Origin: Sphingorhabdus sp. 109 | GTDB lineage: Bacteria > Pseudomonadota > Alphaproteobacteria > Sphingomonadales > Sphingomonadaceae | Direction of reading: 5' to 3' | Length of the DNA stretch: 38,200 nt | Assembly: GCF_902506555.1 (NCBI RefSeq) | Contig: NZ_LR732709.1 | Location: forward strand, 1-38,200 | In this document: one piece after another, positions 1,198 through 27,665 of the stretch | How positions within the stretch are numbered: the stretch's first letter is position 1 | How the letters are laid out: each line of letters starts with the position of its first letter | Notes under the pieces: model-generated | The model's database searches: none | Seen by the model: the letters and a program-made list of their open reading frames with translations, nothing else | Told to the model about the DNA's origin: nothing | Position numbers and translations under genes: made by a program

Positions 1198-1207
1198 ACA
1201 AAAAGCG

Positions 1208-1281: not shown

Positions 1282-1289
1282 TGACTGTG

Positions 1290-1556: not shown

Positions 1557-1558
1557 AC

Positions 1559-7010: not shown

Positions 7011-7033
7011 TTGCGCAAAGAAGGAACGACTAT

Positions 7034-7987: not shown

Positions 7988-7998
7988 AGGAGGACGTC

Positions 7999-8382
7999 AT
8001 GTATTTGCAAAAAATAAGCCTGTCCTACACGCTCCGGCCTGTATTTCCGCCATTCATGGTGCCGCATAAGCGGTGGTGCCAACGACCGCACATCAAGTCG
8101 ATCATCAGCTATGCTGCCGATTTATGCGATTTGGCGATCAGCGATGTTGTCGGCCCCAGCCAGACGCAACAGCACGCCCGGTGCCGCTACGTGATCGTGC
8201 ATTGTGTCACCGCTTTGCGTCCGGATATGAGCACCACGCAGATCGGCCGCTATCTTGGCGATCGCGACCATTCAACAATCCTGAATGCGCGCAAGGTAGC
8301 CTTGGCATTGCGGTTGCACGTCCCCGAATTTGATGATCACTGCATCGAAATTCTGGCCTATTTCGAAGGGAAGCGGCCATGA
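7999..8382 (+). CDS. Stand-alone DnaA domain IV-like protein
   Basis: A 127-residue protein whose residues about 31-105 align by eye with the C-terminal DNA-binding domain IV of the replication initiator DnaA. ISDVVGPSQTQQHARCRYV (48-66) corresponds to the basic loop and following helix, and MSTTQIGRYLGDRDHSTILNA (77-97) to the HTH signature; the Asp-His pair of the DnaA GGRDHTT motif is kept. There is no AAA+ domain. AAGGAGGA 5 bases before ATG 7999 is the strongest SD in the early region, and the frame upstream of that ATG only shadows gene B. It may bind DnaA-box-like sites in host or phage DNA, recruiting or competing with host initiation during replicative transposition. The role is inferred. 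Confidence 0.8.
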   Translation: MYLQKISLSYTLRPVFPPFMVPHKRWCQRPHIKSIISYAADLCDLAISDVVGPSQTQQHARCRYVIVHCVTALRPDMSTTQIGRYLGDRDHSTILNARKVALALRLHVPEFDDHCIEILAYFEGKRP

Positions 8383-9050
8383 ACGCACCAGCCCGAAAAG
8401 CGACATTCAGCGGCGTGAAATCGCATCGCAACTCGATGATTGGCAAGATCCATGTTGCCAGAAAACAGCTGAACATGGTCGAGGATGACTATCGCCAGTT
8501 GCTGCTCGACACGACCGGCGAGATAAGCCTGACCAAATGCGGCGACGCCCAGCTGGTCAAAATGGTTGATGCGTTGAAGGCGAAAGGGTTTCAGGCGTTG
8601 CCGACGAAACGCAAAACCGCCGATCATCCGGTCGCGCGAAAGGCCCGCGCGCTGTGGATATCGCTTTATCATCTGAACGCCATCGAAAACCCTTCTGACC
8701 AGGCTCTGGAAGCCTTCGCAAGACGTCAGTTGCGCGCGGCACAATTGCAATGGGCCGACCAGACGCAAGGATATAAGCTGATTGAGGCGCTGAAGCAGAT
8801 GGCCGAGCGTCATGGATGGTCACAGGAAGGCGGCCGGGCAAAGGCGGGCAACCAGGTCCATGTCTTGCAGCGCTGCCTGTGTGAGGCCATCCGGGCGAAA
8901 CTGGAGGCCAAGGGGCTGTGCCCGCATGACTGGACGCTGGAGCAGGCCGCTTATCGCCTTTCCGGACAGAGGCTCTCGACCATTCCAACCATCGAAGAAT
9001 TATCGTTGCTGGCCAAGGCGCTGGGCAACAAATTGAGGGAGAACAAGTGA
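8379..9050 (+). CDS. gemA: GemA-like regulatory protein (DUF1018)
   Basis: A 223-residue protein matching the Mu GemA/gp16 family (PF06252): IGKIHVARKQLNMVEDDYRQ near residue 22, LVKMVDALKAKGFQ, ARALWISLYHLNAIENPSD and QGYKLIEALKQMAERHGW. GemA of Mu affects host gene expression and DNA topology early in the lytic cycle. The C-terminal third is longer than in Mu. ATGA overlap with the DnaA-like gene; it is followed by a coupled small membrane gene and mor. Confidence 0.85.
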   Translation: MNAPARKATFSGVKSHRNSMIGKIHVARKQLNMVEDDYRQLLLDTTGEISLTKCGDAQLVKMVDALKAKGFQALPTKRKTADHPVARKARALWISLYHLNAIENPSDQALEAFARRQLRAAQLQWADQTQGYKLIEALKQMAERHGWSQEGGRAKAGNQVHVLQRCLCEAIRAKLEAKGLCPHDWTLEQAAYRLSGQRLSTIPTIEELSLLAKALGNKLRENK

Positions 9051-9223
9051 TGTTGAAACGCACGCATAACGTATTTTTGCCGAAGCCGGAGTCGATCGAA
9101 TTTACCCGACTGACCAAAGTCACCGATAGTGCTTCGGAATTGCGGCGCCATCGCCGACAGATATTTGTGTTCGGCTGCGCCGCGATGTTCATTTTCGGGC
9201 TATTGATCGGACGTCTTGCCTGA
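9050..9223 (+). CDS. Small single-span membrane protein (57 aa)
   Basis: ATG 9050 overlaps the GemA stop (TGATG) and the frame ends in a TGATG overlap with the mor-like gene. The product has a cytosolic-looking N-terminal part, a basic patch (LRRHRRQ) and one hydrophobic span (IFVFGCAAMFIFGLLIG) close to the C-terminus. Coupling on both sides argues that it is translated. No family recognised. Confidence 0.65.
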   Translation: MLKRTHNVFLPKPESIEFTRLTKVTDSASELRRHRRQIFVFGCAAMFIFGLLIGRLA

Positions 9224-9582
9224 TGACCACCGGTTCTGCCCTTCTGGACGATATCGCAGTTGTGATCGGCGTCGACGCCGCATTGCAGCTGAGTTGGCGT
9301 TTTAGGGGGCAGGATCTCTACATTCCCAAGGATATCGAGCGTGCATGGGCCATCGTGGACTTGATCGGAGAAGCTCTGGCCCAGCAGCTTTCCGATAATT
9401 ATCACGGCACGACCATCCCGGTACCCAAGGGGCCCGGCGAGAAATTCATGGTTCTGGCGCTGGCCGAAGAAGGCCTGACCAGACAAAAAATTGCAGACAG
9501 GCTTGGCATCGGCGAGCGGCAAGTCTATCGGATATTGAGTCGACAAGAAGACCCGCGTCAGCACAAGCTCTCTTTCCTCTGA
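9223..9582 (+). CDS. mor: Mor/C-family transcriptional activator
   Basis: A 119-residue protein of the Mor/C family. The N-terminal dimerisation part has IAVVIGVDAALQLSWRFRGQ and DLYIPKD, and the C-terminal HTH is EEGLTRQKIADRLGIGERQV followed by YRILSR (about 82-107). In Mu, Mor activates the middle promoter and C the late promoters. Here only one such gene is visible, so it may do both jobs. It is the last gene of the early/middle block, and a candidate binding site begins within its final codons (9577). Confidence 0.85.
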   Translation: MTTGSALLDDIAVVIGVDAALQLSWRFRGQDLYIPKDIERAWAIVDLIGEALAQQLSDNYHGTTIPVPKGPGEKFMVLALAEEGLTRQKIADRLGIGERQVYRILSRQEDPRQHKLSFL

Positions 9583-9622
9583 CATCTGACAGGGAACGGA
9601 CAGCGTTCCTTTTCGACTATTG
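9577..9622 (+). promoter_or_regulatory. Late promoter candidate upstream of endolysin (Plys-like)
   Basis: The 17-mer CTCTGACATCTGACAGG (9577-9593) contains the near-palindrome TGACA-TC-TGACA. The same 17-mer with one base changed recurs before the protease gene at 20958. A -10-like CTATTG starts 40 bases after the 17-mer start, and the ATG of the endolysin 54 bases after it. There is no matching -35, as expected for a Mor/C-activated promoter. Confidence 0.6.
9593..9613 (+). terminator. Possible terminator hairpin after mor
   Basis: GGAACG (9593-9598) and CGTTCC (9604-9609) form a 6-bp stem with a 5-base loop, followed by TTTT. It lies directly after the activator-site 17-mer and inside the candidate late promoter. 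It may end the early/middle transcript; alternatively it is part of the promoter architecture. Confidence 0.45.
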
Positions 9623-9630
9623 CAGTCGGC

Positions 9631-10266
9631 ATGCAAACCACCCAGCAACTTGTTCAGGAAATCTTGGTCTCTGGCTATAGCCAGCGCTTCGTCGACGCGG
9701 TGCGCGACGTGCTTGGCATCGAAGGTGGGCATGTCAATGACCCGGTCGATCGCGGCGGAGAGACCAAATTTGGCATTTCCCTGCGCTATCTGGTTTCGGC
9801 CGGGAAGGACGATTTCGATCAGGACGGCTTGGCCGATTTTGATCTGGACATGGACGGCGATATCGATGGCGCCGATATCCGGCTGCTGACAGTCGGTGAC
9901 GCGGTCTTCCTCTATCATCGCGATTTTTGGCTTGCTTATGATTGCGATTGCCTGCGCAAGCCGCTGGGTGAGGCGCTGTTCGACCAGGCGATTAATGGCG
10001 GCGGCTATGCCGCAAAAACCATGCTGCAGTTGGCGTTAAATGAAATTAATCCGCCAAATGACGATATCGTTGTCGATGGTAAAATCGGACCGCTCACACG
10101 CGCCGTTCTGGAAGCTACGATCGCGCGCGCTGGCATCGAGGCCATGTTGGAAGCATACCGCGAGCAGGTCCGGGCGCGCTATCGTGCCATCGTCCGCAAC
10201 AATCCATCACAGCAACGGTTCCTTAAAGGTTGGCTGAACCGCGCCAATAGGCTGGGGAAATATTGA
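9631..10266 (+). CDS. GH108-type endolysin with Ca-loop-like insert
   Basis: A 211-residue glycoside hydrolase family 108 peptidoglycan hydrolase. IEGGHVNDPVDRGGETKFGIS (30-50) holds the catalytic Glu31 of the EGG motif, and the C-terminal domain (QAINGGGYAAKTMLQ, VDGKIGPLT) is the family's peptidoglycan-binding part. Residues about 58-85 form an Asp/Gly-rich insert (DFDQDGLADFD and DMDGDIDGADI) resembling EF-hand/dockerin calcium loops. No signal peptide or SAR anchor is visible, so release probably needs a holin. First gene after the late-promoter candidate. No SD precedes the ATG, consistent with a nearly leaderless transcript. Confidence 0.88.
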   Translation: MQTTQQLVQEILVSGYSQRFVDAVRDVLGIEGGHVNDPVDRGGETKFGISLRYLVSAGKDDFDQDGLADFDLDMDGDIDGADIRLLTVGDAVFLYHRDFWLAYDCDCLRKPLGEALFDQAINGGGYAAKTMLQLALNEINPPNDDIVVDGKIGPLTRAVLEATIARAGIEAMLEAYREQVRARYRAIVRNNPSQQRFLKGWLNRANRLGKY

Positions 10267-10787
10267 TGAACCCTCTATCCTATCTTAAAATCGGTGGCGG
10301 GATCCTTGGTATCGTCGCCCTGGCATCGATGGCATGGCTGGCCAAGGACCGCTTTGCGCAAAAGGAACGCGCGGATGCCGCCGATGATTGCGCCGCCGTT
10401 GCGTTCAAACTGACCGGCGATCTGGACGATTGTCTGCCGGCGGTAAAATCGGCGATCACCGAATATCGCCGCAGCGAAACGTGCGACGCCGGCCTTTCAT
10501 CCCAGCCAGCCGCCAGTGGCACCTTTGCGGTGCAGCAGGCCTGTTCGACCGAGGTCAAGGCCGTCGTCGCACAGCGCGACGCGGCCAAGCACAATCAGGA
10601 TGATGCAGAGCGGTTGCTGGCGGAGCTGAAGAAAAATTCCCTCGCCGCGATCGAGCGCGCTGAAACGCGAGCGGCCAACATCACCAAAAGGACCAATAAT
10701 GCAATACAGACGATCGAAGCCGCGCCTCGCGGTGATGATGGCCTCGTTGTTTGCGATGATGCCTGCCTGCGCAACATTGCCGGATGA
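10266..10787 (+). CDS. Rz-like inner-membrane spanin
   Basis: A 173-residue protein with one N-terminal membrane segment (ILGIVALASMAWLA, about 13-26) and a periplasmic, largely helical region (QRDAAKHNQDDAERLLAELK). The C-terminal end carries two cysteines (VVCDDACLRNIAG). Starting at ATG 10266 in a TGATG overlap with the endolysin. The type II-out topology and the embedded lipoprotein frame behind it are typical of an i-spanin, which with its partner fuses inner and outer membranes at lysis. Confidence 0.8.
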   Translation: MNPLSYLKIGGGILGIVALASMAWLAKDRFAQKERADAADDCAAVAFKLTGDLDDCLPAVKSAITEYRRSETCDAGLSSQPAASGTFAVQQACSTEVKAVVAQRDAAKHNQDDAERLLAELKKNSLAAIERAETRAANITKRTNNAIQTIEAAPRGDDGLVVCDDACLRNIAG

Positions 10788-11010
10788 AAGGCCTGCAGTA
10801 GAACACGACCCGGTCATCTTAACGAATTCGAAGGTCGAAAAAGTATGTCCGCACGAGTTGCTGCTTGAGGTTCCCGGTCGGCCAGCAACGCCTGCCGGCG
10901 CGATCGTAAAGGCCAATGAACTCGCGCTCGGTTGGCTGCGCGATCTTGGAAGCTATGTCACCCTGATTGAAACGCGGTTGATTGACGCCGCAGGAGAATG
11001 CCCGAAGTGA
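10699..11010 (+). CDS. Rz1-like outer-membrane spanin lipoprotein
   Basis: A 103-residue protein that begins inside the Rz-like gene in the +1 frame (89-base overlap) and continues beyond it. A basic N-terminus is followed by a hydrophobic stretch and a lipobox-like MPAC with Cys24, then Pro-containing sequence. This is the classic overlapping Rz/Rz1 arrangement; the lipoprotein would sit in the outer membrane and bind the i-spanin. It is longer than many Rz1 proteins. Confidence 0.8.
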   Translation: MQYRRSKPRLAVMMASLFAMMPACATLPDERPAVEHDPVILTNSKVEKVCPHELLLEVPGRPATPAGAIVKANELALGWLRDLGSYVTLIETRLIDAAGECPK

Positions 11011-13478
11011 GTGATTTTCAGACCACTGATATAATTAGTCTTCCTGCGGCGACGTCGATTTCTGCGGATGCAGTCGTTGCTGTCCAGGAGCCGAGCGGGC
11101 CGGTTCAGAAGCTAACAGTCGAGCGCCTGTTTTCTCATGTGATCGCCACCGATACTGCGCGCGATACCGAGGACAACTTGCAGCTGGTCGTTGCTGGCGA
11201 CGCGAATGAAATCGGGCTAGTTTTTGCCGATCCCGACCCGGCCTTGTCCGGCTGGTACCGAAGCACGGCAGCCGGGGCCGGCAATTGGGTTCAGTTCGAG
11301 AATTTGTCGTCGCAAGCAGCGGCATTAGTGGCATCGCTTGTATCGGATGCAGAGCTTGCCCGCGACAAATCCCAAGCCTGGGCGGAGGGCACCGAACCAG
11401 GGGGCGGCGGTACCAAGTCGGCCAAGGAACATGCGGAAGACCTCGCCGAGCAGGTGGATCTGGGGAACGCTATTTTCCCTCTTTTCAGTGAAGTTGAAAG
11501 CAACAATATCGTTGACCCGTCAACGGGCATTGATAACGCCTCCATCAATACCGGCGGATCAATGGGAACGAATACCCAATATGGCCGCATTTTTATACCA
11601 TGTAGCGCTGGCGTTCCAATCACTGTTTCGATCCGCGCGGCGGACTTGAACTGGAATTTGGATCAGGTGGGCGCGGTCTATTTCTATAATTCCACCACCA
11701 CATTCAGCGGCGCGACGCTTGTTGACCGCACAACCGTCGGCGAGAACGGCCTGGCATTTTCCGATGATGGGCGGACCCTGACCGTCACTCCGCCTTCTGG
11801 TGCCGTTCGTATGGGGATTACTCCTTACAATGAACAGGTTCCCGAGCCTGGTTCGGATGCGTTCGATGATCTTTGGCGGTTGATGATGGGCAATGAGGGA
11901 TCGACGGCGTTGCCTTATGAGCCTTGGGTTGACGCAGGCACGAAGAATTTTCCTGATACTGTCCTGAACGCCGAGAATAAGCCTATTTCGTTTGTGATCG
12001 ATGGCGAACTTCTTAGCGTTACAGCAAAAAGCTGGCGTGAAGGCGACTACAACACCTATCAATGGAACTATGACGAAACGGAATTGGAAGCCGACAGCGG
12101 AACCGTCAATCTTACTGGAGCCGGTATTTCGGACGGCCTTTCAGCATTTCTGACGGCGGCGGAAAACCACCGCGCTTCTGGCAGGCTTTTTACCGCTCAC
12201 CCAGACAATCAACCGCCTGGCCGCTACTGCGATACGTTTTTAGGCGGAACCCACCGCGACAACTATATGCATCCAATCACGGCAGAGGCTCACGGATTGA
12301 CCGAAGCAGATTTGGGTCGGAACGTAAAGATCAACGACGTTAATTATATGCTGGTGAGGATAAAGAGCGCAGACCTATTTGAAGTTCATATTCTGAACTC
12401 TGGTGCCGATAGTGATGGTTGGATTTTCAACACCACTCTCCCGCCAAACACCGGAACTGCAACGGTAACAGGTGTTGGAGACATTGCTTATACTGCCGCC
12501 ACGACTGGGCAATGGGCGCCGATGTTCCAGAAGAAGGAAAATCGGGTCATTGCAGATGGTGTTCGTGTAGAAACATCCGGCTTTTCTGATGAGATTGAAA
12601 TTAATGAGGTCTACGGCGTCCCGAACGTGGCGCGATATATGGCCTATCTGGCATCGACCATCGGTCAAACTGGTCGCCGCCTATTGAACGATCCTGCTAA
12701 TGACACCCAGGTATATTTCATCAATCGTTGGAGAATTGACCGCTTCGGCACACTGGCCGGGCTGGGTATCGTCCGACTTGAGCAGTCGGTCAGATTGACA
12801 GATATTGATTATTTCGGTTTCATGCAGCAGCAATCGATGTCGCTTGGAGCAGGTGAGACGCTTTACCAATATGTTGCGGGCCTCAACGGTGCGCTTGCGG
12901 GCGTCGACATGCATATTGGTGGATTGATATCCGGAATGTCATCATCGGAAGTGGCGGCGCGGGTAGAAAACGCGGCCAACGGTATCGAGAGGATCAACCT
13001 CTTTACGCAATACAAGGTAAAATCCAGCTTGCCAGTTCATGCGCTCGATATCGGTGTGCCTGGCATGTTCGGCGAATCGCGTGATCTGCTCGAGCGAAGC
13101 TGGCGCATTGTCAAGTCATCGCAGAAACAATACCCCATCGTTGCTGATCGAGGCACATTGGGTGCAACCACGGCTGCCGGGGTCAATATTCCGGGCTTCT
13201 TCTTTGAAGCGCCCCACAAAATGGCCGACCATCAAAACGAAGTTTCTTCCAGCGTGTTTCTCGGGCCTGATGGATACGCATATCGCGCGGTCGCTTTCCG
13301 ATCTGCGGTAGATAAGGTATTCATCGAAATGCCTAAAGAGACGTTCGGGCGCATCGCAGAGATCCAGACCGATTACAGTAACACGTCTTTTGTGGTTCAC
13401 CGTGGCGGGATGATCGACGCAGACGGTGTTTTGGTTTCCGCGCCGGCTGGCGGCCATGCTTATCTGAAGGTGGTGTAA
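10998..13478 (+). CDS. Large fibre-like / receptor-binding protein
   Basis: An 826-residue protein. The N-terminus (SLPAATSISADAVVAVQEPS) is of a kind found at the particle-attaching end of phage fibre proteins. A short helical linker follows (LARDKSQAWAEG ... SAKEHAEDLAEQ), then a carbohydrate-binding-like beta region (about 170-315, ending GNEGSTALPYEPW), and a long C-terminal part without recognised motifs. Tail receptor binding is the best guess. Placement between spanin and holin-like genes is unusual. ATG 10998 has AGGAG close upstream; in-frame GTG 11007, in a GTGA overlap with the Rz1 stop, is an alternative. Parts look less GC-rich than the neighbours, which might indicate acquisition. 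Confidence 0.6.
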   Translation: MPEVSDFQTTDIISLPAATSISADAVVAVQEPSGPVQKLTVERLFSHVIATDTARDTEDNLQLVVAGDANEIGLVFADPDPALSGWYRSTAAGAGNWVQFENLSSQAAALVASLVSDAELARDKSQAWAEGTEPGGGGTKSAKEHAEDLAEQVDLGNAIFPLFSEVESNNIVDPSTGIDNASINTGGSMGTNTQYGRIFIPCSAGVPITVSIRAADLNWNLDQVGAVYFYNSTTTFSGATLVDRTTVGENGLAFSDDGRTLTVTPPSGAVRMGITPYNEQVPEPGSDAFDDLWRLMMGNEGSTALPYEPWVDAGTKNFPDTVLNAENKPISFVIDGELLSVTAKSWREGDYNTYQWNYDETELEADSGTVNLTGAGISDGLSAFLTAAENHRASGRLFTAHPDNQPPGRYCDTFLGGTHRDNYMHPITAEAHGLTEADLGRNVKINDVNYMLVRIKSADLFEVHILNSGADSDGWIFNTTLPPNTGTATVTGVGDIAYTAATTGQWAPMFQKKENRVIADGVRVETSGFSDEIEINEVYGVPNVARYMAYLASTIGQTGRRLLNDPANDTQVYFINRWRIDRFGTLAGLGIVRLEQSVRLTDIDYFGFMQQQSMSLGAGETLYQYVAGLNGALAGVDMHIGGLISGMSSSEVAARVENAANGIERINLFTQYKVKSSLPVHALDIGVPGMFGESRDLLERSWRIVKSSQKQYPIVADRGTLGATTAAGVNIPGFFFEAPHKMADHQNEVSSSVFLGPDGYAYRAVAFRSAVDKVFIEMPKETFGRIAEIQTDYSNTSFVVHRGGMIDADGVLVSAPAGGHAYLKVV

Positions 13479-13705
13479 TGGATTATCGCACTTCCCAAAA
13501 AGACAGGCAATCATCGCAGAAATCATCTGCCGGGCAGCGCGGGCATTTCCTTTGGAGGAAGCCGCTTAGAAATTCGTTTATAGCTTTGAAAATCCGTTTC
13601 ATGGAGGCTCTCCTACCACGAATTGACGAGGCGCGCCAGAGGGCTGGCGGTCCAGCCTTTGGGCGGCCCGCGTCCGGCTTCATCTATGAGAATTGCAGGG
13701 CCTGA
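13478..13705 (+). CDS. Small basic hypothetical protein
   Basis: A 75-residue protein beginning in a TAATG overlap with the fibre gene. It has a polar N-terminus and a helical middle (LRNSFIALKIRFMEALLPRI). No family recognised. Overlapping start and tight gap to the next gene (1 base) are the main support. Confidence 0.45.
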   Translation: MDYRTSQKDRQSSQKSSAGQRGHFLWRKPLRNSFIALKIRFMEALLPRIDEARQRAGGPAFGRPASGFIYENCRA

Positions 13706-13706
13706 C

Positions 13707-14153
13707 ATGCCGGAGGGAGCGATCATAAAAATCGGTGCGTTTTATTCCGCCTGGCTGTTCTCGCTAATGACGGTTTCGTCAGGCGTTGAAGCACCCAAGC
13801 AACTGGAGGAAATCTTGCTGATCGAGTTTGAAGGGATGGTCATCCCGGCCGTTCCCGCGATCGCCGCGGTATTGGGTGTCCTGATGTCGCGCATGCTTTC
13901 GCCGAAAAAGGATCCGCCGCTTAGCCTGACGAACAATGTGATCGTGACGATGATCATGCTGGTCGCGTCACTGCTCTGGGTCATCGAGGCGCAGCCAGGG
14001 ACGTTGTTCGCCTTTCTGGTCGCGATCGGCATGGGCTTTTCCGGCTATTCCCTGATCGAATTGATGGGCGAGGAGATCAAGATATTCGTCAAAAAAGCCT
14101 TTTCCACTGCAACCGAATTTCTCGGCCGTCTCAGCAAAAAGAAAGAAGACTGA
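13707..14153 (+). CDS. Multi-span membrane protein, holin candidate
   Basis: A 148-residue protein with three or four hydrophobic segments (about 7-22, 43-62, 76-93, 97-117) and a Lys-rich C-terminus (RLSKKKED). Size, topology and position in the lysis region make it the best holin candidate for the signal-less endolysin. Sequence family not recognised. The open frame extends upstream to 13623, but ATG 13707 just after the previous stop is the natural start. Confidence 0.55.
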   Translation: MPEGAIIKIGAFYSAWLFSLMTVSSGVEAPKQLEEILLIEFEGMVIPAVPAIAAVLGVLMSRMLSPKKDPPLSLTNNVIVTMIMLVASLLWVIEAQPGTLFAFLVAIGMGFSGYSLIELMGEEIKIFVKKAFSTATEFLGRLSKKKED

Positions 14154-14154
14154 C

Positions 14155-14520
14155 ATGCCTCAATATAGCTGGATCGAACTGGCCATCATGCTTTTCATAA
14201 TCGCGGGATTTGCCGTTGTCATCTGGCGCGGCGGACAGGCCAATCCGGAAAGCACGGGGCGCCTGGGCAGCCGCCTGACCAAGGTAGAGACCAAGATGAC
14301 CGAGGTTGAAACCGAAATGGAGCATGTGCGCGACCGGCTGAACGACTTCGAAATTACCTTGGCCAGGGTCAGCGACAAAATGGTGACCAGGGTCGATCTC
14401 GACAATATCGAAAAGCTGATGGCGCGCGACGCAGAAACATCGCGCAAGACGTGGAAGGCGGTGGAGAGGCTGGAAGGGTTTTTCATCGAAAATGCGATCA
14501 AGCAAAGGAGCGGGTCATGA
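14155..14520 (+). CDS. DUF2730-like membrane/coiled-coil protein (Mu gp25 type)
   Basis: A 121-residue protein with one N-terminal membrane span (IELAIMLFIIAGFAVVIW) and a long coiled coil with repeated heptads (LTKVETKMTEVETEMEHVRD). This matches the DUF2730 family (PF10805) found just before the packaging genes in Mu-like phages. Function unknown; a role at the membrane during lysis or assembly is possible. Confidence 0.75.
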   Translation: MPQYSWIELAIMLFIIAGFAVVIWRGGQANPESTGRLGSRLTKVETKMTEVETEMEHVRDRLNDFEITLARVSDKMVTRVDLDNIEKLMARDAETSRKTWKAVERLEGFFIENAIKQRSGS

Positions 14521-15050
14521 TAGTGGCTTTTCACTTGCTGATCGGATGGCTGATCGCTGATCTGATTTCGGGAATCGTTCACTGGATTGAGGACCGGATA
14601 TTGTGGGTCGGTATGCCGTTGATCAGCAAGTCAGTGGTGGAACCGAACCGCCTGCATCACGAGGATCCGCGTTTCTTTCTGGACCAGACGATATGGCAGC
14701 GCGGCGGCACGACATGGTTTGCGACGGCGGCGCTGGCGGGCTTGTGGCTCTGGTTAATCGGCTTTTCCTTCATCTGGCTGAGCGCACTGGCCGGTGGACT
14801 GCTAACCGCCGAAATTCACGCAATGGCCCACCGGGGCAACGAAACCACCGGCTTCCCGCGCGTGCTGCAGCAGATCGGTATCATCCAGTCGCCATCCCAT
14901 CATGCGGGGCACCATAGCCGGGCAATGGACACGCGCTATTGCACCCTGACCGACTTTCTCAATCCGCTGCTCGACTGGATCGGTGTCTGGCCGGCGTTGG
15001 AAAAAATTCTAACCACAATCGGGCTTGAGCCCAATCGAGGCACGCAATGA
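14517..15050 (+). CDS. CarF/PEDS1 (TMEM189)-type lipid desaturase homologue
   Basis: A 177-residue membrane protein whose histidine clusters follow the TMEM189/CarF (PF10520) plan: IVHW (His22), RLHHEDP (47, 48), EIHAMAHR (101, 105) and SHHAGHHS (128, 129, 132, 133), then YCTLTDFLNPLLDWIGVW. Human PEDS1 and bacterial CarF have the same order, ending YFCIT-x-WLN. They introduce the vinyl-ether bond of plasmalogens with a di-iron centre. Hydrophobic segments surround about 2-20 and 66-98. ATG 14517 overlaps the previous stop (ATGA) and the next gene also starts in an ATGA overlap, so it is a fully integrated late gene. Substrate in this phage is unknown; all metal-ligand-like residues look intact. 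Confidence 0.85.
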   Translation: MIVAFHLLIGWLIADLISGIVHWIEDRILWVGMPLISKSVVEPNRLHHEDPRFFLDQTIWQRGGTTWFATAALAGLWLWLIGFSFIWLSALAGGLLTAEIHAMAHRGNETTGFPRVLQQIGIIQSPSHHAGHHSRAMDTRYCTLTDFLNPLLDWIGVWPALEKILTTIGLEPNRGTQ

Positions 15051-15358
15051 AAGATTATGCAGAAGTTCATGGCGAACATATCCGTCTCAGCATTTTGCGC
15101 ATATTGGCAAAACAGCCGAGCTATCAGATCAATGACAGCATTCTGACCCAGATGGTGTCGAATGGGCTTGGTCTAGCATGTACTCGCGACCAAATGCGCG
15201 GGCATATCGCCTGGCTGGACGAGCAAGGCCTTATCAAAGCGGTACCGGCAGAAGGTGCCAGCCGGTTGACATTGGCCAGGCTGACCGAAAGCGGCGGCGA
15301 AGTGGCCAGTGGCATGCGCACCGTGCCCGGTGTTCAACGCCCCTCACCGGGGGAATGA
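15047..15358 (+). CDS. VpaChn25_0724-type winged-helix protein (Mu gp26 position)
   Basis: A 103-residue protein: HGEHIRLSILRILAKQPSYQ, NDSILTQMVSNGLGL, MRGHIAWLDEQGLIKA, LTESGGEVASG and a conserved end TVPGVQRPSPG. This is the small winged-helix-like family routinely found before the small terminase in Mu-like phages. It may bind DNA in packaging or regulation; this is not established. ATGA-coupled to the desaturase gene. Confidence 0.8.
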   Translation: MKDYAEVHGEHIRLSILRILAKQPSYQINDSILTQMVSNGLGLACTRDQMRGHIAWLDEQGLIKAVPAEGASRLTLARLTESGGEVASGMRTVPGVQRPSPGE

Positions 15359-15359
15359 T

Positions 15360-15962
15360 ATGGTCACCCGTCCGGCAAAGAAAAAGAAGACCCCCTCCAG
15401 CATAACGCGGCTGCCAAAATCCATTCAGGATGAAATCAAGACGCTGCGGAATGACCAGGGTGCGACGATCGACGAGATACTGGACCATCTGCGCAAGCTG
15501 GATGTCGCAGTCTCGCGCTCGGCGCTTGGCCGGCACACGCAATCGCTGGACGAGCTGACCGCGCATCTGGAGTTTGCCCGCGTGTCGGCTGACGCGATCG
15601 CCAAGAATTTTGGCGAGGTGCAGGATGACAAGTTGGCCCGCGCCAATGTCGAGCTGCTGCAATCATCAATCCTGCGCCTGCAGATGGCCGCGCATGAAGC
15701 GATGTTGCGCAGTGAAGACGATGATGAACCAATGGCATTCCCGATCCCGCCGAAAGAAATACTGGCGCTATCGCGTTCGGTCCAAGCGCTGGCCGGTACC
15801 GAGAAATCCATTCAGGAGCGGATCCGCACGGCCGTTCGGGATGCGAAGGAAAAGGCGACAAAGGCGGCTGCAGAGAATGCCACCCGCGCCGCGCGATCCG
15901 AAGGCCTGTCACAAGATACGGTCGATGCGATCCGTTTTGCTGTTCTGGGCAGCGAAACATGA
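15360..15962 (+). CDS. Small terminase-type protein (DUF3486, Mu gp27)
   Basis: A 200-residue protein. The N-terminal KKTPSSITRLPKSIQDEIKT with an HTH-like GATIDEILDHLRKLDVAVSR and ALGRHTQSLDEL matches DUF3486 (Mu gp27), the presumed small terminase subunit that recognises the packaging site near the phage left end. The C-terminal half is helical with Ala/Lys-rich segments. ATG 15360 follows the previous stop by one base; the upstream extension to 15309 is a shadow. Confidence 0.85.
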   Translation: MVTRPAKKKKTPSSITRLPKSIQDEIKTLRNDQGATIDEILDHLRKLDVAVSRSALGRHTQSLDELTAHLEFARVSADAIAKNFGEVQDDKLARANVELLQSSILRLQMAAHEAMLRSEDDDEPMAFPIPPKEILALSRSVQALAGTEKSIQERIRTAVRDAKEKATKAAAENATRAARSEGLSQDTVDAIRFAVLGSET

Positions 15963-17497
15963 AGCTATCACCTGAAGATCAGAAAAAGCGAGATGATCGC
16001 ATTCGCCAGTCGGAGCTGATGGGTGACCGGCTGGCGGCGGAGGAATCGCTGGTCCGGTTGCCGCGCGGTGACCTTTTGCTCAAATATCAGCAGAAAGCGG
16101 TGGACCGCATGTTTGCCGGTGTTTCGCTGCTCGCAATCGAGAAGTCGCGGCGGGTTGGCCTGACCTGGGGCGTGGGCAGTTTCGCCACTCTGAAGGCCAG
16201 CTCTGCGGTAGAGGCGGGTGGGCAAAATGTCTGGTACATGGGTTATGACAAGGACATGACCCTGGAATTTATCGAAGTCTGCTCGATGTGGGCGCGGGCG
16301 TTCAATCTGATTGCCGGCGACGTCCAGGAAGAGGAAGTCCTCTACACCGACGAAAATGGCAGGGAGCAGGGGATAAAGGCATTCTCGATCCGCTTTGCCA
16401 GCGGTTTCCGGATCACCGCCCTGCCGAGCGTGCCCAGAGCGCTGCGCGGCAAACAGGGAATCGTCATCATCGATGAGGCGGCATTCCACAAGGACGTCGA
16501 GGAAGTGCTGAAGTCGGCGATGGCGCTGCTGATCTGGGGCGGGCAAGTGGTTGTCATTTCGACCCATGACGGGATTTCGAACCCGTTCAACAAATTGCTG
16601 GACGATATCTCCAGCGGGAATCGCCGTGGCGAGCGGATGAAAATCACGTTCAAGGACGCCATGGAAAACGGCCTTTACGAGCGGGTCGCGATGGTCGCTG
16701 AGACCAAGGGCGTTGATCTGGAGCCGAAAGAGGAATGGGAAGCCAATATCCGCGCCAGCTATGGCGATGACGCGGGCGAAGAGCTCGACTGCGTTCCCAA
16801 GGTCGGTTCCGGTTCGCTTTTGAAGATCGAGGATATCGCTGCCTGCGAACATGAAGAGGCTGGCCTGTCGGACTTTTACCAGGGCGGGCTTTGCTATGTC
16901 GGCCGGGACGTCGCGCGGCGCAATGATGGCCAAATCCAATATTGCATGGAGCTGCTCGGCGATGTTCTGTGGCAGCGCGACACTTATGAGGAGGTCGGGC
17001 AGACCTTTGCGCATCAGGACGCCTTTTTTGATGGCTTGTTCAAACGCCGCCGAATTGCCAGCGCATGGATCGATCAGACCGGAATGGGCGAACCGGTTGT
17101 TGAGGCGTTACAGGTGAAACATGGCAGTCTGCGAGTCGTTGGTGAGCTGCTCACCGGCCCGAACCGGCTTGACCTTGCAACATCGCTCAAGGATCATTTT
17201 GAAACGCACCGGATCCGCATCCGTAAGGATCTGATGACCCGATCCGATCTGCTGGCGATCAAAAAGGTCGGCAGCGAGCAATCCGGCGGCGTCCGGATCG
17301 TCAACGACAGTTCGGTCCACGCCGACCGGTTCTGGGCCTATGCTCTCGCCTGCCGCGCACATGATATGGGCGCGGAGCTTTACGAACATCATGGGCCGCG
17401 TGGCCAAAGCGGAAAACGAGGGGATGCCGGATGGCAGCACCCGGATGACAGAGGGCAGGAACGCGGGTCGCGCTTTCGCGGTCGCGGAGCCTGGTAA
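15959..17497 (+). CDS. Terminase large subunit (Mu gp28-like)
   Basis: A 512-residue packaging motor. A Walker A-like EKSRRVGLTW is at 61-70, Walker B IVIIDEA at 168-174 and a coupling motif VVISTHDG at 198-205. The C-terminal nuclease domain shows acidic residues in YVGRDVARRNDG and WIDQTGMGEPV. It pumps DNA into the prohead and, in Mu, cuts by headful in flanking host DNA. The extreme C-terminus (HHGPRGQSGKRG onward) is Gly/Arg-rich and probably flexible. ATGA overlap with the small subunit. Confidence 0.92.
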   Translation: MKLSPEDQKKRDDRIRQSELMGDRLAAEESLVRLPRGDLLLKYQQKAVDRMFAGVSLLAIEKSRRVGLTWGVGSFATLKASSAVEAGGQNVWYMGYDKDMTLEFIEVCSMWARAFNLIAGDVQEEEVLYTDENGREQGIKAFSIRFASGFRITALPSVPRALRGKQGIVIIDEAAFHKDVEEVLKSAMALLIWGGQVVVISTHDGISNPFNKLLDDISSGNRRGERMKITFKDAMENGLYERVAMVAETKGVDLEPKEEWEANIRASYGDDAGEELDCVPKVGSGSLLKIEDIAACEHEEAGLSDFYQGGLCYVGRDVARRNDGQIQYCMELLGDVLWQRDTYEEVGQTFAHQDAFFDGLFKRRRIASAWIDQTGMGEPVVEALQVKHGSLRVVGELLTGPNRLDLATSLKDHFETHRIRIRKDLMTRSDLLAIKKVGSEQSGGVRIVNDSSVHADRFWAYALACRAHDMGAELYEHHGPRGQSGKRGDAGWQHPDDRGQERGSRFRGRGAW

Positions 17498-17506
17498 GGG
17501 AAAAAC

Positions 17507-19195
17507 ATGCAGGAAAAATCACTGCCGCCGCTGATCTGGGCCAATGGTCAGCCCATGCGCACCGATATTTTGGGCCGCGAAATCAGCGCGCCGACCACCG
17601 GATCCGTGCGGACCATCATGTCCGGGCATCCGGCGCAAAATCTGGAACCCTACAGGCTGGGCCGGATATTGTTGTCGGCCGAACAGGGTGACGCGAAAGC
17701 CTATTTCGAACTGGCCGAGGAAATGGAGGAAAAGGATCTCCATTATCTTTCGGTACTCGGCACCCGCAAACGTGCCGTCTGTCAGCTGCCGATCGAGGTC
17801 GAGCCGGCCAGCGACAGCGCCGAGCACAAGGCCGATGCCGATCTGATCCAGAAGGTGCTGGACCGGGACATGCTCGAGGCGGAAATGTTCGACATCATGG
17901 ACGCAGTCGGCAAGGGCGTCAGCACTTGCGAGATTTTGTGGAACACGCAGCGCCAGCCCTGGTTGCCCCGCGATATCAAATGGCGCCGGCCCGAATGGTT
18001 TGAATTTGACCGCATCGATGGCGAAACGCTCGGCCGGATTGAAAATGGCGGCGCCGTACCGCTCGAGCCGGCCAAGTTCATCAGCCATGTGGTCAAGTCC
18101 AAGTCCGGCCTGCCGATCCGTGGCGGTCTCGCCCGCGCGGTGGCCTGGGGCTATATGTTCAAAAACTATGCGCTCAAGGACTGGGTGATATTTCTGGAAG
18201 GATATGGCCATCCGCTGCGGCTGGGCAAATATGGCCCGAATGCCAGTGAAAAGGACAAGGGCATTCTGGCCGATGCGCTGATGGACCTGGGCGCCGACGC
18301 ATGGGGCACTATTCCGGAAACCATGTCGGTGGAATTTGTCGATCGCAAGGCCGGGACCGCGCCGGCCGATCTGTGGCAGGCGAAAGCAAAATATTGGGAT
18401 GAGCAGATTTCAAAAGCGGTGCTGGGTCAGACCAATACCACCGATGCGCAGGCGGGTGGGCTCGGCTCCGGTCAGGCCAATGTTCACAACGAGGTCCGGC
18501 ACGATATCGAGCGCGCGGATGCGAAAATGCTGGCGGCCACGCTCAACCGTGACCTGGTGTGCCCGATCGTCATGCTCAACCATGGCGAGCGCGAAGAATA
18601 TCCACGACTGAAAATAGGGCGCCCGGACGAGGTCGATGCCAAGGTCACTGTCGAAACGGCGGCGATCCTTGCCGGCATGGGCGTTGAAATCGATGCGGAT
18701 GATCTGCGCGAGCAGGCCGGGATGCCAGCACCCAAGGAAGGGGCAAAGATCCTGCAGCGCGGAACGGTCAATTCCCCGGCCAATCCGGACCCGTCAAATT
18801 TGCCCTCTCAGGGCCGCAGGAGCGTGCCGGGCGGCACTGACCCTGCCAAATTGCCAAAGCCCCCCCTCTTAGACCCTCTTAAACGGCTAAAACGGCCTGT
18901 TCGATCAGGCCATGCCGCTGCCAGTCAGACCGGTCTGCCCGAAACCGGTGATGGCATCGATGACGGTGCCGACGAGGCGCTGTCCGATTGGGAGCCGATG
19001 ATGGAGCCTTTGCTGGGTTCGATCGAAGAGCTGTTTGACGGTGCCGGCACGCTGGAAGAATTTCGCGATGCGCTGGCCTCGTCTGCCCAGAACATGGACA
19101 GCTCGGCGTTTCAATCGATGCTCGCCAGGGCTGGCTTCGGTTCGCGGCTGCTCGGCGAGGTTGAAGCCACTGCTGCGGAAGACGAGGATGCCTGA
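17507..19195 (+). CDS. Portal protein (DUF935, Mu gp29-like)
   Basis: A 562-residue protein matching DUF935: NLEPYRLGRILLSAEQGDAK, HYLSVLGTRKRAVCQLPIEV, WGYMFKNYALKDWVIFLEGY and VLGQTNTTDAQAGGLGSGQA are typical. It forms the dodecameric ring at the capsid vertex through which DNA passes. The region about 425-490 is Pro-rich and less conserved, followed by an acidic helical C-terminus. A 9-base gap separates it from the terminase. Confidence 0.92.
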   Translation: MQEKSLPPLIWANGQPMRTDILGREISAPTTGSVRTIMSGHPAQNLEPYRLGRILLSAEQGDAKAYFELAEEMEEKDLHYLSVLGTRKRAVCQLPIEVEPASDSAEHKADADLIQKVLDRDMLEAEMFDIMDAVGKGVSTCEILWNTQRQPWLPRDIKWRRPEWFEFDRIDGETLGRIENGGAVPLEPAKFISHVVKSKSGLPIRGGLARAVAWGYMFKNYALKDWVIFLEGYGHPLRLGKYGPNASEKDKGILADALMDLGADAWGTIPETMSVEFVDRKAGTAPADLWQAKAKYWDEQISKAVLGQTNTTDAQAGGLGSGQANVHNEVRHDIERADAKMLAATLNRDLVCPIVMLNHGEREEYPRLKIGRPDEVDAKVTVETAAILAGMGVEIDADDLREQAGMPAPKEGAKILQRGTVNSPANPDPSNLPSQGRRSVPGGTDPAKLPKPPLLDPLKRLKRPVRSGHAAASQTGLPETGDGIDDGADEALSDWEPMMEPLLGSIEELFDGAGTLEEFRDALASSAQNMDSSAFQSMLARAGFGSRLLGEVEATAAEDEDA

Positions 19196-19719
19196 TGGCG
19201 GATGGGGATATCGACCAGTCTGATTTCGCTGTCGCGTTCACCTTTGCGCGGCCGCTGGCTGCTGCCTATCGGGACGCCAATGGCGACAGTCAGTCCGCCG
19301 CGATCGACACACCGCGTTTTGATCATGACAGCGACGGCAACCCGCTTGGCCTTCTGGTCGAGGGCGGACCCTATCTGGGTCAGGCGGACCGGACCTTGAT
19401 TGATCCGCTGATGCTGCCGGAAAATATTGTGGGAGAGGAAGTGACGATTTTACATTCCATGACCGACATCGATGGCACGATCATTCGCCGTGCCTGGTAT
19501 AGCCGCGACGCGATCGCGATGATCAACGGTTTGTTGGCGATCGCGGGTCGTCATGCTGAAATAGGCCTGATCGCAGGGTTCCGTGAAAACAAGGGCGAGC
19601 CAGACGAGACCGGCTATGTTCGCTATCGCGGACAAAGCTGGCATCTGGTTCCGTTGATTTCGGCGACGGGCGGCGTCTTTCTGGCCGATGCCGCTGGCCG
19701 CCCGCTGATCGGCGGATAG
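19195..19719 (+). CDS. Structural-gene-region hypothetical protein
   Basis: A 174-residue protein between portal and Mu F. TPRFDHDSDGNPLGLLVEGG (about 39-58) resembles a phrase common in phage virion proteins (PRFDxDxxxGxxxGLLVE). The rest (RRAWYSRDAIAMINGLLAIA, YVRYRGQSWHLVPL) is not recognised. Likely a minor head or decoration component by context. Overlaps the portal stop by one base. Confidence 0.6.
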   Translation: MADGDIDQSDFAVAFTFARPLAAAYRDANGDSQSAAIDTPRFDHDSDGNPLGLLVEGGPYLGQADRTLIDPLMLPENIVGEEVTILHSMTDIDGTIIRRAWYSRDAIAMINGLLAIAGRHAEIGLIAGFRENKGEPDETGYVRYRGQSWHLVPLISATGGVFLADAAGRPLIGG

Positions 19720-20883
19720 ATGGCGGACGAAAAGCCACCCGTCCTGCCGCCAAAAGAGGCGATAGCCTATTTCCGGCGCAAAGGGATCCTGTTCGGCTTC
19801 AGCTGGGAAGATGTCTGGCAGGAGGAACATGCCAAGGCCTTTACCGTGGCCAAGGCCATGACCCGCGACCTGATCGAGGATATCCGCGAAGCGGTTGACC
19901 AGGCGATTGCCCAGGGCGAAACACTGGCTATGTTCCGCAAGCAGCTGACACCGGTCCTGATCGCCAGAGGATGGTGGGGTCGCAAGACGGTCATCGATCC
20001 GGCCAACGGCGAAGAGGTGGTGGCGCAGCTGGGAAGCCCGCGACGATTGAAGACAATCTATCAGACCAATATGCGGACCAGTTACCAGGCCGGCCGCTAT
20101 GAGCGGATCCAGCGCCAAAAATCCAGTTTCCCTTTTATGCGCTATATGTCGGTCATGGACGGGCGCGAACGGCCGGAGCACGGCGCGTGGCACGGAACGA
20201 TCCTGCCGGTCGACGATCCGTGGTGGGACACGCATTATCCGCCATGCGGGTGGAATTGCAGATGTACGCCGCAGCCTTTGAGCCAGCGGATGATCGACCG
20301 GCGCGGCTGGAAAATAACCGACGAACCGCATCGATTTCCGATGAAAAGGCATATCAACCGGCGCACCGGTGAAATCACCGAGGTCGAGCGCGGCGTCGAT
20401 CCGGGCTGGTCCTATCATGTCGGCAAGGCCAATCTGGACGGACTGGTCCCGCCGCCGATCGACGCGGCCGGTGACGACGAGGGAGCAATTGCAGCTGTCT
20501 CAGCGGGGGATAAGACACGGCTTAGCGGGTTCTTTGACGCCTTTGGCCTGAAGGACAGCAGCGCGATCGAAAAGGGCATGGTGTTTCGCGATCAGGCGGG
20601 CTGGCCGATTGCGATTTCGGCCGGTTTGTTTCGCACCGGTCGCGGGCAAGTCAGCAATGCCGCCCGCCGCGATCCGGAATCGCTGCGCCATGTTGCGGCG
20701 GCTATCACCGACCCGGTCGAGATACGTTGGCGCTGGGTGCAGGATGTCGAAGGCCGGCCGATGCTGATGCGGCGCTATATCGGCGCGCGTGCAATTGCCG
20801 ATTTCGGACGGACCGGATGGCGCTGGCAGATTACGCGCTCACCTCGTTTTCGCAGAGGCCATCTGGTCTGGACGCGCAAATAA
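19720..20883 (+). CDS. F: Mu F-like minor head protein with C-terminal nuclease-like domain
   Basis: A 387-residue protein. Residues about 30-190 are the phage head morphogenesis (Mu F, PF04233) domain: YQTNMRTSYQAGRYE, RYMSVMDGRERPEHGAWHG and the Cys-rich THYPPCGWNCRC (171-182). After a linker (about 235-285), residues about 285-387 resemble the Barnase-EndoU-ColicinE5/D-RelE-like (PBECR) domains often fused to Mu F: ISAGLFRTGRG, HVAAAITDPVEIRWRWVQDV, RRYIGARAI. Such domains are proposed to be RNases injected with the phage DNA. Activity here is inference; assignment of the exact PBECR subfamily is uncertain. Confidence 0.82.
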   Translation: MADEKPPVLPPKEAIAYFRRKGILFGFSWEDVWQEEHAKAFTVAKAMTRDLIEDIREAVDQAIAQGETLAMFRKQLTPVLIARGWWGRKTVIDPANGEEVVAQLGSPRRLKTIYQTNMRTSYQAGRYERIQRQKSSFPFMRYMSVMDGRERPEHGAWHGTILPVDDPWWDTHYPPCGWNCRCTPQPLSQRMIDRRGWKITDEPHRFPMKRHINRRTGEITEVERGVDPGWSYHVGKANLDGLVPPPIDAAGDDEGAIAAVSAGDKTRLSGFFDAFGLKDSSAIEKGMVFRDQAGWPIAISAGLFRTGRGQVSNAARRDPESLRHVAAAITDPVEIRWRWVQDVEGRPMLMRRYIGARAIADFGRTGWRWQITRSPRFRRGHLVWTRK

Positions 20884-20957
20884 CCAGTAAAAATCGAAAG
20901 CCGATTGCCAGCCCGCATATTGGCGGTTAAGTCTTTGCAAAGGCCACCCAGATGTTT

Positions 20958-21003
20958 CTCTGACATCTGTCAGGTAAAGGATCGAGACTGATCCCTCCAT
21001 AAG
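20958..21003 (+). promoter_or_regulatory. Late promoter candidate upstream of protease (PI-like)
   Basis: CTCTGACATCTGTCAGG (20958-20974) repeats the 17-mer at 9577 with a single A-to-T change, here making TGACA-TC-TGTCA a better palindrome. A -10-like CATAAG starts 40 bases downstream of the 17-mer start, the same as at 9617, and the protease ATG 53 bases downstream. A small GGATC/GATCC hairpin (20979-20994) lies between. Mu has its PI promoter at this place. This is the longest gap in the head region (20884-21010). Confidence 0.62.
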
Positions 21004-21010
21004 CGCCTTC

Positions 21011-22105
21011 ATGACAGGCACGACATCTCTTCCCGCAATCGCGAATGCCACCGCTGTTCATGGTGGCAATGGCGCTCTGCAGCAAGATTTTCTCATCATG
21101 CCCTTTGGCACTCCGATTTTCACCCGCAATGCCGCAGAGCATAATTTGCGCGATCGCGCTCACGCCGACCGGGTGCTCGCCGCCACCAAAGCTGCCCTGG
21201 CAAGCGCGCAAATGTCGATCGATTATGATCACCAGACATTTACCGCCGCCAATACGCAGGTCGGTGGCACGGCCAAGGCCTCTGGCTGGGTAAAGGATCT
21301 GGAAATTCGTGACGACGGGATCTGGGCTCTGGGTGTCAAATGGACGTCACTGGCCGCGACAGCCCTGGCCAGTCAGGAATATCGCTACATTTCGCCTTAT
21401 TACAAATATGATCCGACCACGGGCGATGTCACCCGGATTGTCAACCTGGGCATCACCAATCTTCCCAATTTCGACATGGCTGCGATCGCGGCCGAACATT
21501 CTCATAATAACCAAGGAAGTTTTTGCATGAAGAAAATTGCTGTGGCGCTCGGCCTGGCCGAAGACGCAACCGAGGAGCAGATCCTCACCATGATTGCCGA
21601 CTGGAAATCCGCGCAGTCGGTTGCCAGTGAAATGCAAACCGCCCTGATCACTGTTTTCGGCCTGTCTGCAGATGCAGATGCCGGTGCAATCGCCAGCGCT
21701 GCCAAGACGGCAAAGGATAAGGCTGACCAGCCTGCCGTCGCCGCCGAAGGCGAGATTGATCTGTCAAAATATGTGCCGCGCGCAGAATTTGATGCGGTCG
21801 CGAGCCAGGTCAATAGCCGCGAAGAAGCCGATGCTGTTGCGATGGTTGAGAAGGGCATTGCCGACGGCAAGCTGTTGCCGGCGCAAAAAGCGTTCTGGAT
21901 GACCCAGGCGAAGGCCGACAAGGCTGCCGTGGCGTCCTATCTGGAAGGCGCGCCTGCGATCCTGAAAGATGTCGATTTCGACAACCTCGATAACAAAACC
22001 GCCACCGGCCTGGCCGCCGATGAAGCGGCTGTCGCATCTCAACTGGGGCTGACCGAGGACCAGTTTAGCGCAGCCCAAACCAACAACGAAGGAGCTGCGA
22101 AATGA
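21011..22105 (+). CDS. I: Prohead protease fused to scaffold (Mu I-like)
   Basis: A 364-residue Mu I-type protein (PF10123). The protease half (1-165) has a plausible catalytic His in SIDYDHQT (His74), then GTAKASGWVKDLEIRDDGIW and EYRYISPYYKY. The C-terminal part (from 173) is an acidic helical scaffold ending in LTEDQFSAAQTNN. The enzyme matures the prohead and removes scaffold. No SD precedes ATG 21011, matching the nearly leaderless layout of the PI-like promoter. Confidence 0.88.
   Translation: MTGTTSLPAIANATAVHGGNGALQQDFLIMPFGTPIFTRNAAEHNLRDRAHADRVLAATKAALASAQMSIDYDHQTFTAANTQVGGTAKASGWVKDLEIRDDGIWALGVKWTSLAATALASQEYRYISPYYKYDPTTGDVTRIVNLGITNLPNFDMAAIAAEHSHNNQGSFCMKKIAVALGLAEDATEEQILTMIADWKSAQSVASEMQTALITVFGLSADADAGAIASAAKTAKDKADQPAVAAEGEIDLSKYVPRAEFDAVASQVNSREEADAVAMVEKGIADGKLLPAQKAFWMTQAKADKAAVASYLEGAPAILKDVDFDNLDNKTATGLAADEAAVASQLGLTEDQFSAAQTNNEGAAK
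21527..22105 (+). CDS. Z: Internal in-frame start: scaffold protein (Mu Z-like)
   Basis: An ATG at codon 173 of the protease gene is preceded at about 7 bases by CCAAGGAAG, a much better ribosome site than that of the full-length gene. Translation from here gives a 192-residue protein beginning MKKIAVALGLAEDATEEQ, i.e. the scaffold part alone. Mu makes its scaffold Z in exactly this way from gene I, so separate synthesis is well supported. Confidence 0.75.
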   Translation: MKKIAVALGLAEDATEEQILTMIADWKSAQSVASEMQTALITVFGLSADADAGAIASAAKTAKDKADQPAVAAEGEIDLSKYVPRAEFDAVASQVNSREEADAVAMVEKGIADGKLLPAQKAFWMTQAKADKAAVASYLEGAPAILKDVDFDNLDNKTATGLAADEAAVASQLGLTEDQFSAAQTNNEGAAK

Positions 22106-22515
22106 CTGCACTCGCACAGAAGCGCGAAATCCCTACCCGTGACGGCAAACAGTTTTCCCGTCCGGTTGCCGCCGCTACCGTTATCTATGCCGGCGCATTG
22201 GTCTGCCTGAACGCCGCAGGTAACGCTGTGCCCGGCAGCACGTCGACCACATTGGTTGTCGACGGCATTGCCGAGGACACGATCGACAATAGCGGCGGAT
22301 CGGCTGGCGACGTAAATGTCCCGGTCTATCGTCCAGGGCTGGCGCGCTTTGCCAACAGCACCTCAACCGACGAAATCACGGCCGCTGAAATCGGCGACAA
22401 TTGCTACATCGTCGATGACCAGACGGTCGCCAAAACGAACGGCACCAGCACCCGCTCTGTCGCCGGCAAGGTCGAGGATGTGGACGCCCAGGGCGTCTGG
22501 GTCCGTCTCGACTAA
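22102..22515 (+). CDS. Capsid cement / decoration protein (DUF2190-like)
   Basis: A 137-residue protein: ATVIYAGALVCLNAAGNAVP, VDGIAEDTIDNSGGSAGDV, RFANSTSTDEITAAEIGD and CYIVDDQTVAKTNGTSTRS then VAGKVEDVDAQGVWVRL. These are features of small capsid-cement proteins (DUF2190-like, lambda D-type role) that stabilise the expanded head. ATGA-coupled to the protease/scaffold gene and followed by the major capsid gene, as expected. Confidence 0.82.
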   Translation: MTALAQKREIPTRDGKQFSRPVAAATVIYAGALVCLNAAGNAVPGSTSTTLVVDGIAEDTIDNSGGSAGDVNVPVYRPGLARFANSTSTDEITAAEIGDNCYIVDDQTVAKTNGTSTRSVAGKVEDVDAQGVWVRLD

Positions 22516-22545
22516 TTTGCGAACATTTAGAAGGAAAAGCATCCC

Positions 22546-24041: not shown

Positions 24042-24045
24042 AACC

Positions 24046-24116: not shown

Positions 24117-24142
24117 CTATTGAAACGAAAGGATGATGCTCT

Positions 24143-27629: not shown

Positions 27630-27665
27630 GAGCCCTCTGAGACACCACTGAAAGGACGTTAAGAC

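Follow-up and report, generated by a model that had tools for sequence, protein, structure and literature searches.

What would a lipid desaturase-type protein do among the late genes of a bacteriophage, and which reaction would it catalyse? This question is raised by contig NZ_LR732709.1 of Sphingorhabdus sp. 109 (the entire contig of 38,200 bp was analysed and is referred to here as the window), in which an open reading frame for a protein of the Pfam family PF10520 (Lipid_desat) lies inside a Mu-like phage. The reading that we favour, to which we give a probability of roughly 0.6, is that this frame belongs to the resident late genes of a Mu-like phage that was active recently, and that its product is a PF10520 di-metal oxygenase, which would desaturate host lipids late in infection. 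The features of the window that are central to this reading are the following.

2..38200 (+), complete Mu-like element with the ends TGTTAGGGG...CCCGCTACA
5073..7010 (+), Mu transposase A (PF02914 1.8e-58; phrog_310 5e-157)
14517..15050 (+), PF10520 lipid desaturase-type gene, 177 codons

Identification of a PF10520 Gene in a Phage Late Operon

An earlier note on this DNA, made from its letters alone, had described the 177 amino acid (aa) frame at these coordinates and assigned it to the TMEM189/CarF family (PF10520), and both points are borne out. The protein (P0001) matches the PF10520 profile with 110.5 bits (E 1.2e-31, cut-off 26.4) over positions 1–172 of 175, i.e. nearly the full length, and a score so far over the cut-off is not a chance match. 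The same Pfam scan gave a sub-threshold match to FA_hydroxylase (PF04116) and no match to the classical FA_desaturase family, and a scan of P0001 against PHROGs assigned no family. Long helices are predicted at residues 2–27, 59–80 and 85–109, and the AlphaFold2 model (pLDDT 91) finds its best solved structure in the di-metal lipid enzyme Scs7p (4zr0, 4zr1), though the match is weak, at about 15% identity. We take Scs7p to be a sphingolipid fatty-acid 2-hydroxylase. A sequence search of the PDB with P0001 returned nothing at E up to 10, and a PDB match of the alignment profile (A1) to Cas6-RT-Cas1 (E 0.022) was taken as chance.

The gene is coupled to phage genes on both sides, as had been proposed, by overlaps of 4 nt (14517–14520 and from 15047). 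At the 5' junction the stop of the upstream gene lies inside the ATGA that starts the desaturase gene at 14517, and at the 3' junction the next gene begins at 15047, within the end of the desaturase gene. An AAAGGAG is read directly 5' of the start, and the gene looks at home in the phage because its GC content (57.9%) is close to that of the window (57.5%). It is a resident late phage gene, and the phage PF10520 gene is under purifying selection (dN/dS 0.07–0.33 in seven pairs, with dS >1.3 in two of them).

The phage late operon recognized in the earlier note is equally evident from Pfam, which identified Mu transposase, MuB, GemA, Mor, Gp27, Mu portal, gpF and gpT, together with further phage families (viz. 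tail sheath, baseplate J, terminase, and GH108 endolysin). Mu A and B, Mor, Gp27, portal, gpF, gpT and a 5-bp duplication jointly characterize the element as a Mu-like transposable phage. Base 1 of the window is the final base of a target duplication, and the left and right window ends both occur, parted by a single N, at two sites in contig C2, one in each orientation, where the joints read as 5-bp target duplications at two chromosomal sites (TTGTG and CCCGC). Because the ends lie at two sites, each with its own duplication, we infer that one complete Mu-like prophage transposed recently and that its two copies are collapsed into this contig.

Catalytic Residues of the Phage Protein

The histidines listed in the earlier note stood with a single exception: H22, H47, H48, H101, H105, H129, H132 and H133 are invariant across a 23-row alignment, whereas His128 falls outside its invariant and near-invariant columns. 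The end motif YCTLTDFLNPLLDWIG was also found in the window protein, where Y141, C142, L144, N149 and P150 are invariant in the same alignment. In mouse PEDS1, the available portion of PMC8960569 gives His 96, 121, 122, 187, 191, 215, 218 and 219 and also Asp100 as essential, and states that a further residue, His131 (H113 in CarF), is kept in PEDS1 and not in FAD4; this ninth His is likewise absent from plant and alphaproteobacterial homologues in the available text of PMC9131029. Pairing by spacing equates D26 of the window protein with Asp100, Q57 with H131 and N44 with F118, and the window protein thus holds all eight essential histidines of the family and its catalytic Asp. These nine residues are all kept in 73 of 74 aligned rows, the remaining row (L039) being too short to span them because of the start chosen for it. 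His at position 57 and Phe at position 44 occur in two rows (P0120 and L002), and the PEDS1-only His is missing in 33/34 phage rows, with L002 as the exception. As judged from its histidine set, the phage clade resembles FAD4 and the alphaproteobacterial enzymes rather than PEDS1/CarF. FAD4 is the plant trans-delta-3 palmitate desaturase of phosphatidylglycerol; we assume that it has Phe at the N44-equivalent place, which the text of PMC8960569 did not confirm.

The exceptional protein, L002 (5001–5459 of a 595-kb uncultured phage), is a PF10520 protein with the nine-His and Phe pattern of PEDS1 that is placed outside the main phage clade, and its sequence makes it a better viral plasmalogen synthase candidate than the window protein.

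Phylogeny and Distribution

Our tree holds 74 rows, of which 71 are different. It was made without duplicates and partial or weak rows (L003, L005, L021, L024, L029, L033, L034, L045, L048–L052, L059 and L149), and also without the broken L032, L143, L150 to L158, and 101 of the 128 homologues from protein searches. Of the 34 phage rows, 31 (28/31 distinct) fall in one clade of 42 rows (support 96/95), together with 11 rows of unknown context and none of the 18 rows labelled as bacterial genome, not every one of which is proven chromosomal. The phage rows outside it are L002, L023 and L031, and four loci that come from genomes but lie amid phage genes (L035, L036, L046 and L047) were counted as phage. 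In this tree, which holds no named CarF, PEDS1 or FAD4 sequence, the phage PF10520 proteins form a phage-dedicated clade. An alignment search for CarF, animal or plant proteins (110 rows; best 7,998 candidates scored) retrieved none so labelled, although P0120 shows the nine-His pattern.

Matches of clade strength (>190 bits) were found in three of the 298 family genomes and three of the 396 order genomes, with the window genome counted in both samples, while in the class sample the window genome was the only one of 385, the other four matches reaching at most 163.3 bits. A strict host restriction of the phage clade is only suggestive, because few members of the family were in the class sample and only about 1% of family genomes give such a match. 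A pattern-limited scan of GTDB contigs found L033–L036, all of them clade-type loci and all from Sphingomonadales (the L033 and L034 proteins are the same as those of L006 and L007). Genome G1236, from the same family as the window genome, has a clade-type copy (L156), with several genes 100% identical to those of Sphingomonas sp. PL-96 (L036), which points to Sphingomonadaceae as the most likely family. Genomes of this family also encode proteins of ~233–257 aa (L048–L052) with a weak profile match (46–64 bits) and common GW-AD and HHPRP motifs, possibly a distant sister family by sequence; L157 and L158 are further weak profile matches (46 and 29 bits).

Recurrence in Other Phages

Relatives were identified at 29 IMG/VR loci, in two phage records and at 12 GTDB loci (some of the latter being IMG/VR phages). 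The IMG/VR relatives came from an alignment-based scan of viral contigs; a scan with the single window protein gave three pattern matches with no relative among them. Gene maps were made with a codon-model gene caller. Within Mu-like phages the gene occupies five slots, the first of which is shared by the window and other Mu-like phages, a recurrence for which the earlier note had proposed a survey.

Slot 1, between gp25-like and gp26-like genes: window, L004–L007
Slot 2, between a phrog_436 gene and gp27: L025, L028
Slot 3, between gp27 and terL: L012, L026 (55-aa gene in between), L027
Slot 4, between terL and portal: L155
Slot 5, tail completion region: L047, L058, L059

Capsid relatives in IMG/VR (best 80 of 182 confirmed, 45 of these 80 with enough flank) carry the desaturase gene in 4/45 well-flanked cases (6/80 overall); the four are L004, L005, L012 and L025, the L004 and L005 proteins being identical. 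The gp25-like and gp26-like genes of L056, L065 and L069, which have no desaturase gene, are 45, 21 and 0 nt apart, and the gene is an optional insert between them. As an auxiliary gene should, it has phage genes on either side in several distinct phages; it shares its strand with the preceding gene in 35/35 phage loci and with the next gene in 31/32, and an overlap with a neighbour gene occurs in 22/35.

Ten loci that are P2-like by reading of their genes (L009–L011, L013, L015, L016, L018, L029, L035 and L036) have the order holin (C9), endolysin (C21/C36) or unclustered gene, small protein, desaturase. The small protein is C10, sometimes with C57 (a spanin by reading only; neither gave a PHROG or Pfam match), and the identities of the C9, C21, C36 and tail gene representatives come from PHROGs and Pfam. 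Lysis-type neighbours are also seen in L014 (M23 endopeptidase 5' of the gene) and L008 (Rz-like spanin 3' of it). The gene lies between baseplate genes in L017 and L020 (L020 scanned), and in Erythrobacter phage vB_EliS-L02 it is found between phoH and portal, separated from phoH by one gene; the words "desaturase" and "lipid" are absent from the main text of the paper on this phage. A universal lysis linkage was rejected in view of the placement elsewhere in L017/L020, L022, L012/L026/L027, L047/L058 and the cbK-like L001/L019/L021. The L022 desaturase is 84% identical to the copy of the Mu-like L025, and the only window gene tested that L022 has in its available stretch is a 29%-identical terminase, a sign that the desaturase may have been exchanged between differently built phages.

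Two other copies lie on large viral contigs. The L030 protein (9971–10498 of a 415-kb contig) is a member of the main clade with 52% identity to the window protein. In L032 (about 10000–10462 of a 500-kb contig) a middle stretch gives its match in the reverse orientation to the rest, for which reason the copy was excluded; it is broken or misassembled, possibly by inversion, and a recoded stop was rejected, since a table 15 reading leaves the gene closed. Among the literature matches listed, in which subscription papers are thinly covered, no description of a phage PF10520/CarF gene was found.

Neighbouring Genes in the Window

The genes that surround the desaturase gene are as follows.

9223..9582 (+), Mor-family late activator (PF08765 3.7e-6; phrog_836 3.2e-19)
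9631..10266 (+), endolysin (Glyco_hydro_108 (GH108), PG_binding_3)
10266..11010 (+), Rz/Rz1-like spanin pair by layout only (overlapping frames 10266–10787 and 10699–11010; no PHROG with known function)
13707..14153 (+), small membrane protein of several helices, likened to a holin by reading alone (weak PHROG, unknown function)
14155..14520 (+), gene coupled to the desaturase gene on its 5' side, in the gp25-like position, with membrane helix and coiled coil by reading (best PHROG phrog_736, E 0.0018, function not known)
15047..15358 (+), downstream coupled gene, gp26-like by position (phrog_436, unknown function)
15360..15962 (+), Mu Gp27-like small terminase (PF11985 3e-28, scanned from 15309)
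15959..17497 (+), large terminase (Pfam and PHROG matches)

The late operon is probably driven by the Mor-family gene. An 826-aa protein (10998–13478), encoded after the endolysin region and before the holin-like gene, matched neither Pfam nor PHROGs at E 0.001; from where it lies, it may be a fibre or a protein of host interaction. Two further products of the window are a gpF-like protein whose C-terminal domain is PBECR2 nuclease-like (19720–20883) and a D12-class adenine methyltransferase (PF02086; 37304–38104), encoded at the phage's right end.

Alternative Explanations

The alternative that survives best, unlikely though worth keeping in view, is a sphingolipid or fatty-acid hydroxylase/desaturase fitted to the glycosphingolipid-containing envelope of sphingomonads, a group whose envelope contains sphingolipids. 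Scs7p is the closest solved fold, and FA_hydroxylase matches occur in several phage copies, but these are mostly sub-threshold and the PF10520 score is far over that of PF04116 in every copy scanned. The four clade-type loci of the GTDB scan are all from Sphingomonadales, the clade-strength whole-genome matches lie within the family of the window genome, and an Erythrobacter phage has the gene; such a host restriction is, however, based on few genomes, with few family members in the class sample, and the sphingolipid content of the host is assumed from the group only.

Plasmalogen (vinyl-ether) synthesis of the PEDS1/CarF type, which the earlier note had put forward, is improbable. The phage protein belongs to the same Pfam family and holds all eight shared histidines and the D100 equivalent. 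Moreover, the available portion of PMC8960569 reports 7.4% of activity left in mouse H131A (and 5.9% in an F118 mutant), so that loss of the ninth His is not absolutely disabling. Against this stand Q57 in its place and the near-general lack of this His among phage rows, and the score to the NCBIfam CarF equivalog (NF045946) is 65.4 bits, compared with 185 for P0120, in which both that His and the Phe are present; both scores are under the 500-bit cut-off, which is hardly reachable for 177 aa. In the available text of PMC9131029, a carF mutant was complemented neither by Arabidopsis homologues nor by the alphaproteobacterial one. The scan of the host genome found PF10520 in the phage copy only, and both host PF02913 proteins match D-2-hydroxyglutarate dehydrogenase and its relatives far better than AGPS. 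No AGPS-like PF02913 protein was thus found in the host; the route by way of ElbD, which predominates in M. xanthus, was not searched, and absence of a plasmalogen precursor is therefore unproven. Because the ninth His is absent and neither a second PF10520 protein nor an AGPS-like PF02913 protein was found in the host, vinyl-ether formation by the window protein appears unlikely, the missing His being the main evidence and the host PF02913 identities the second, and an acyl-lipid desaturase or hydroxylase is the likelier activity.

We also have little confidence that the gene is lysogenic-conversion cargo that aids the host (membrane fluidity, oxidative stress) and lies in the late block by accident. 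The phage is temperate, the gene has an accessory distribution, and virus desaturases from Arctic brines (Arctic vFADs) have been proposed to help their hosts (PMC7300359, in the part available), but the strand agreement with the preceding gene in all 35 phage loci and the overlaps in 22 of them speak for integration into the late block, and the gene is also found in vB_EliS-L02, described as lytic in the available part of its paper. A catalytically dead membrane protein with a structural or holin-like role, akin to the fold-retaining structural protein suggested in the earlier note, is very improbable, for although the protein is small, helical, and adjoins lysis genes in several phages, the eight histidines and the catalytic Asp are kept in every row that spans them and the dN/dS values denote purifying selection.

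Proposed Mechanism and Significance

Under the favoured reading of a late PF10520 desaturase, the conserved catalytic chemistry indicates that the phage enzyme probably edits host membrane lipids, and a role at lysis or assembly may be envisaged, lysis being mildly favoured by the gene neighbourhood in some phages. The desaturase would be translated with the late gene block, would take its place in the inner membrane with all eight histidines facing the same (cytosolic) side, and would bind two irons. With O2 and host electrons it would then desaturate, or less likely hydroxylate, acyl chains of abundant host lipids, and bilayer properties would be shifted shortly ahead of virion release. A bolder and rather doubtful proposal is that phages of sphingolipid-containing hosts share a dedicated mobile lipid-editing family as an extra lysis component beside holin, endolysin and spanins, which would oxidise inner-membrane or sphingolipid acyl chains and so govern when, or how completely, the envelope ruptures.

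Most lipid desaturases known from phages have been sporadic genes of host origin. In the present case, an unusual desaturase family of animals, plants and a few bacteria has a phage lineage of its own, which is located in late or lysis gene blocks and moves among differently built tailed phages. With it, the editing of membrane lipids by a virus as infection ends can be tested directly, and new PF10520 enzymes become available for asking what decides PEDS1 versus FAD4 substrate choice.

Comparison with Known Systems

Scs7p is like the window protein in being its nearest solved fold, and unlike it in its low identity and in the lack of any PDB sequence match. PEDS1/CarF/TMEM189 proteins share with it the family PF10520 and the equal spacing of the eight histidines and catalytic Asp; the phage protein differs in lacking the ninth His (Q57) and the Phe of mouse F118 (N44), in being shorter (177 aa versus 281 residues and four helices for CarF in the available text of PMC8156234), and in a host in which no AGPS-like PF02913 protein was found. 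Plant FAD4 and its alphaproteobacterial homologues are, as the phage protein is, eight-His members of PF10520 without the ninth His (as defined in the available parts of PMC8960569 and PMC9131029), a likeness drawn from the histidine set and the literature, no FAD4 sequence having been compared. The phage clade stands apart from the sampled bacterial-genome proteins.

Roitman and colleagues are said to have described lipid desaturases of cyanophages in 2018. These and the Arctic vFADs, both of which we take to belong to the classical FA_desaturase family, have in common with the present gene that phage genes are expected to desaturate host membrane lipids. The phage gene described here belongs instead to PF10520, and it is located in the late gene blocks of sphingomonad phages.
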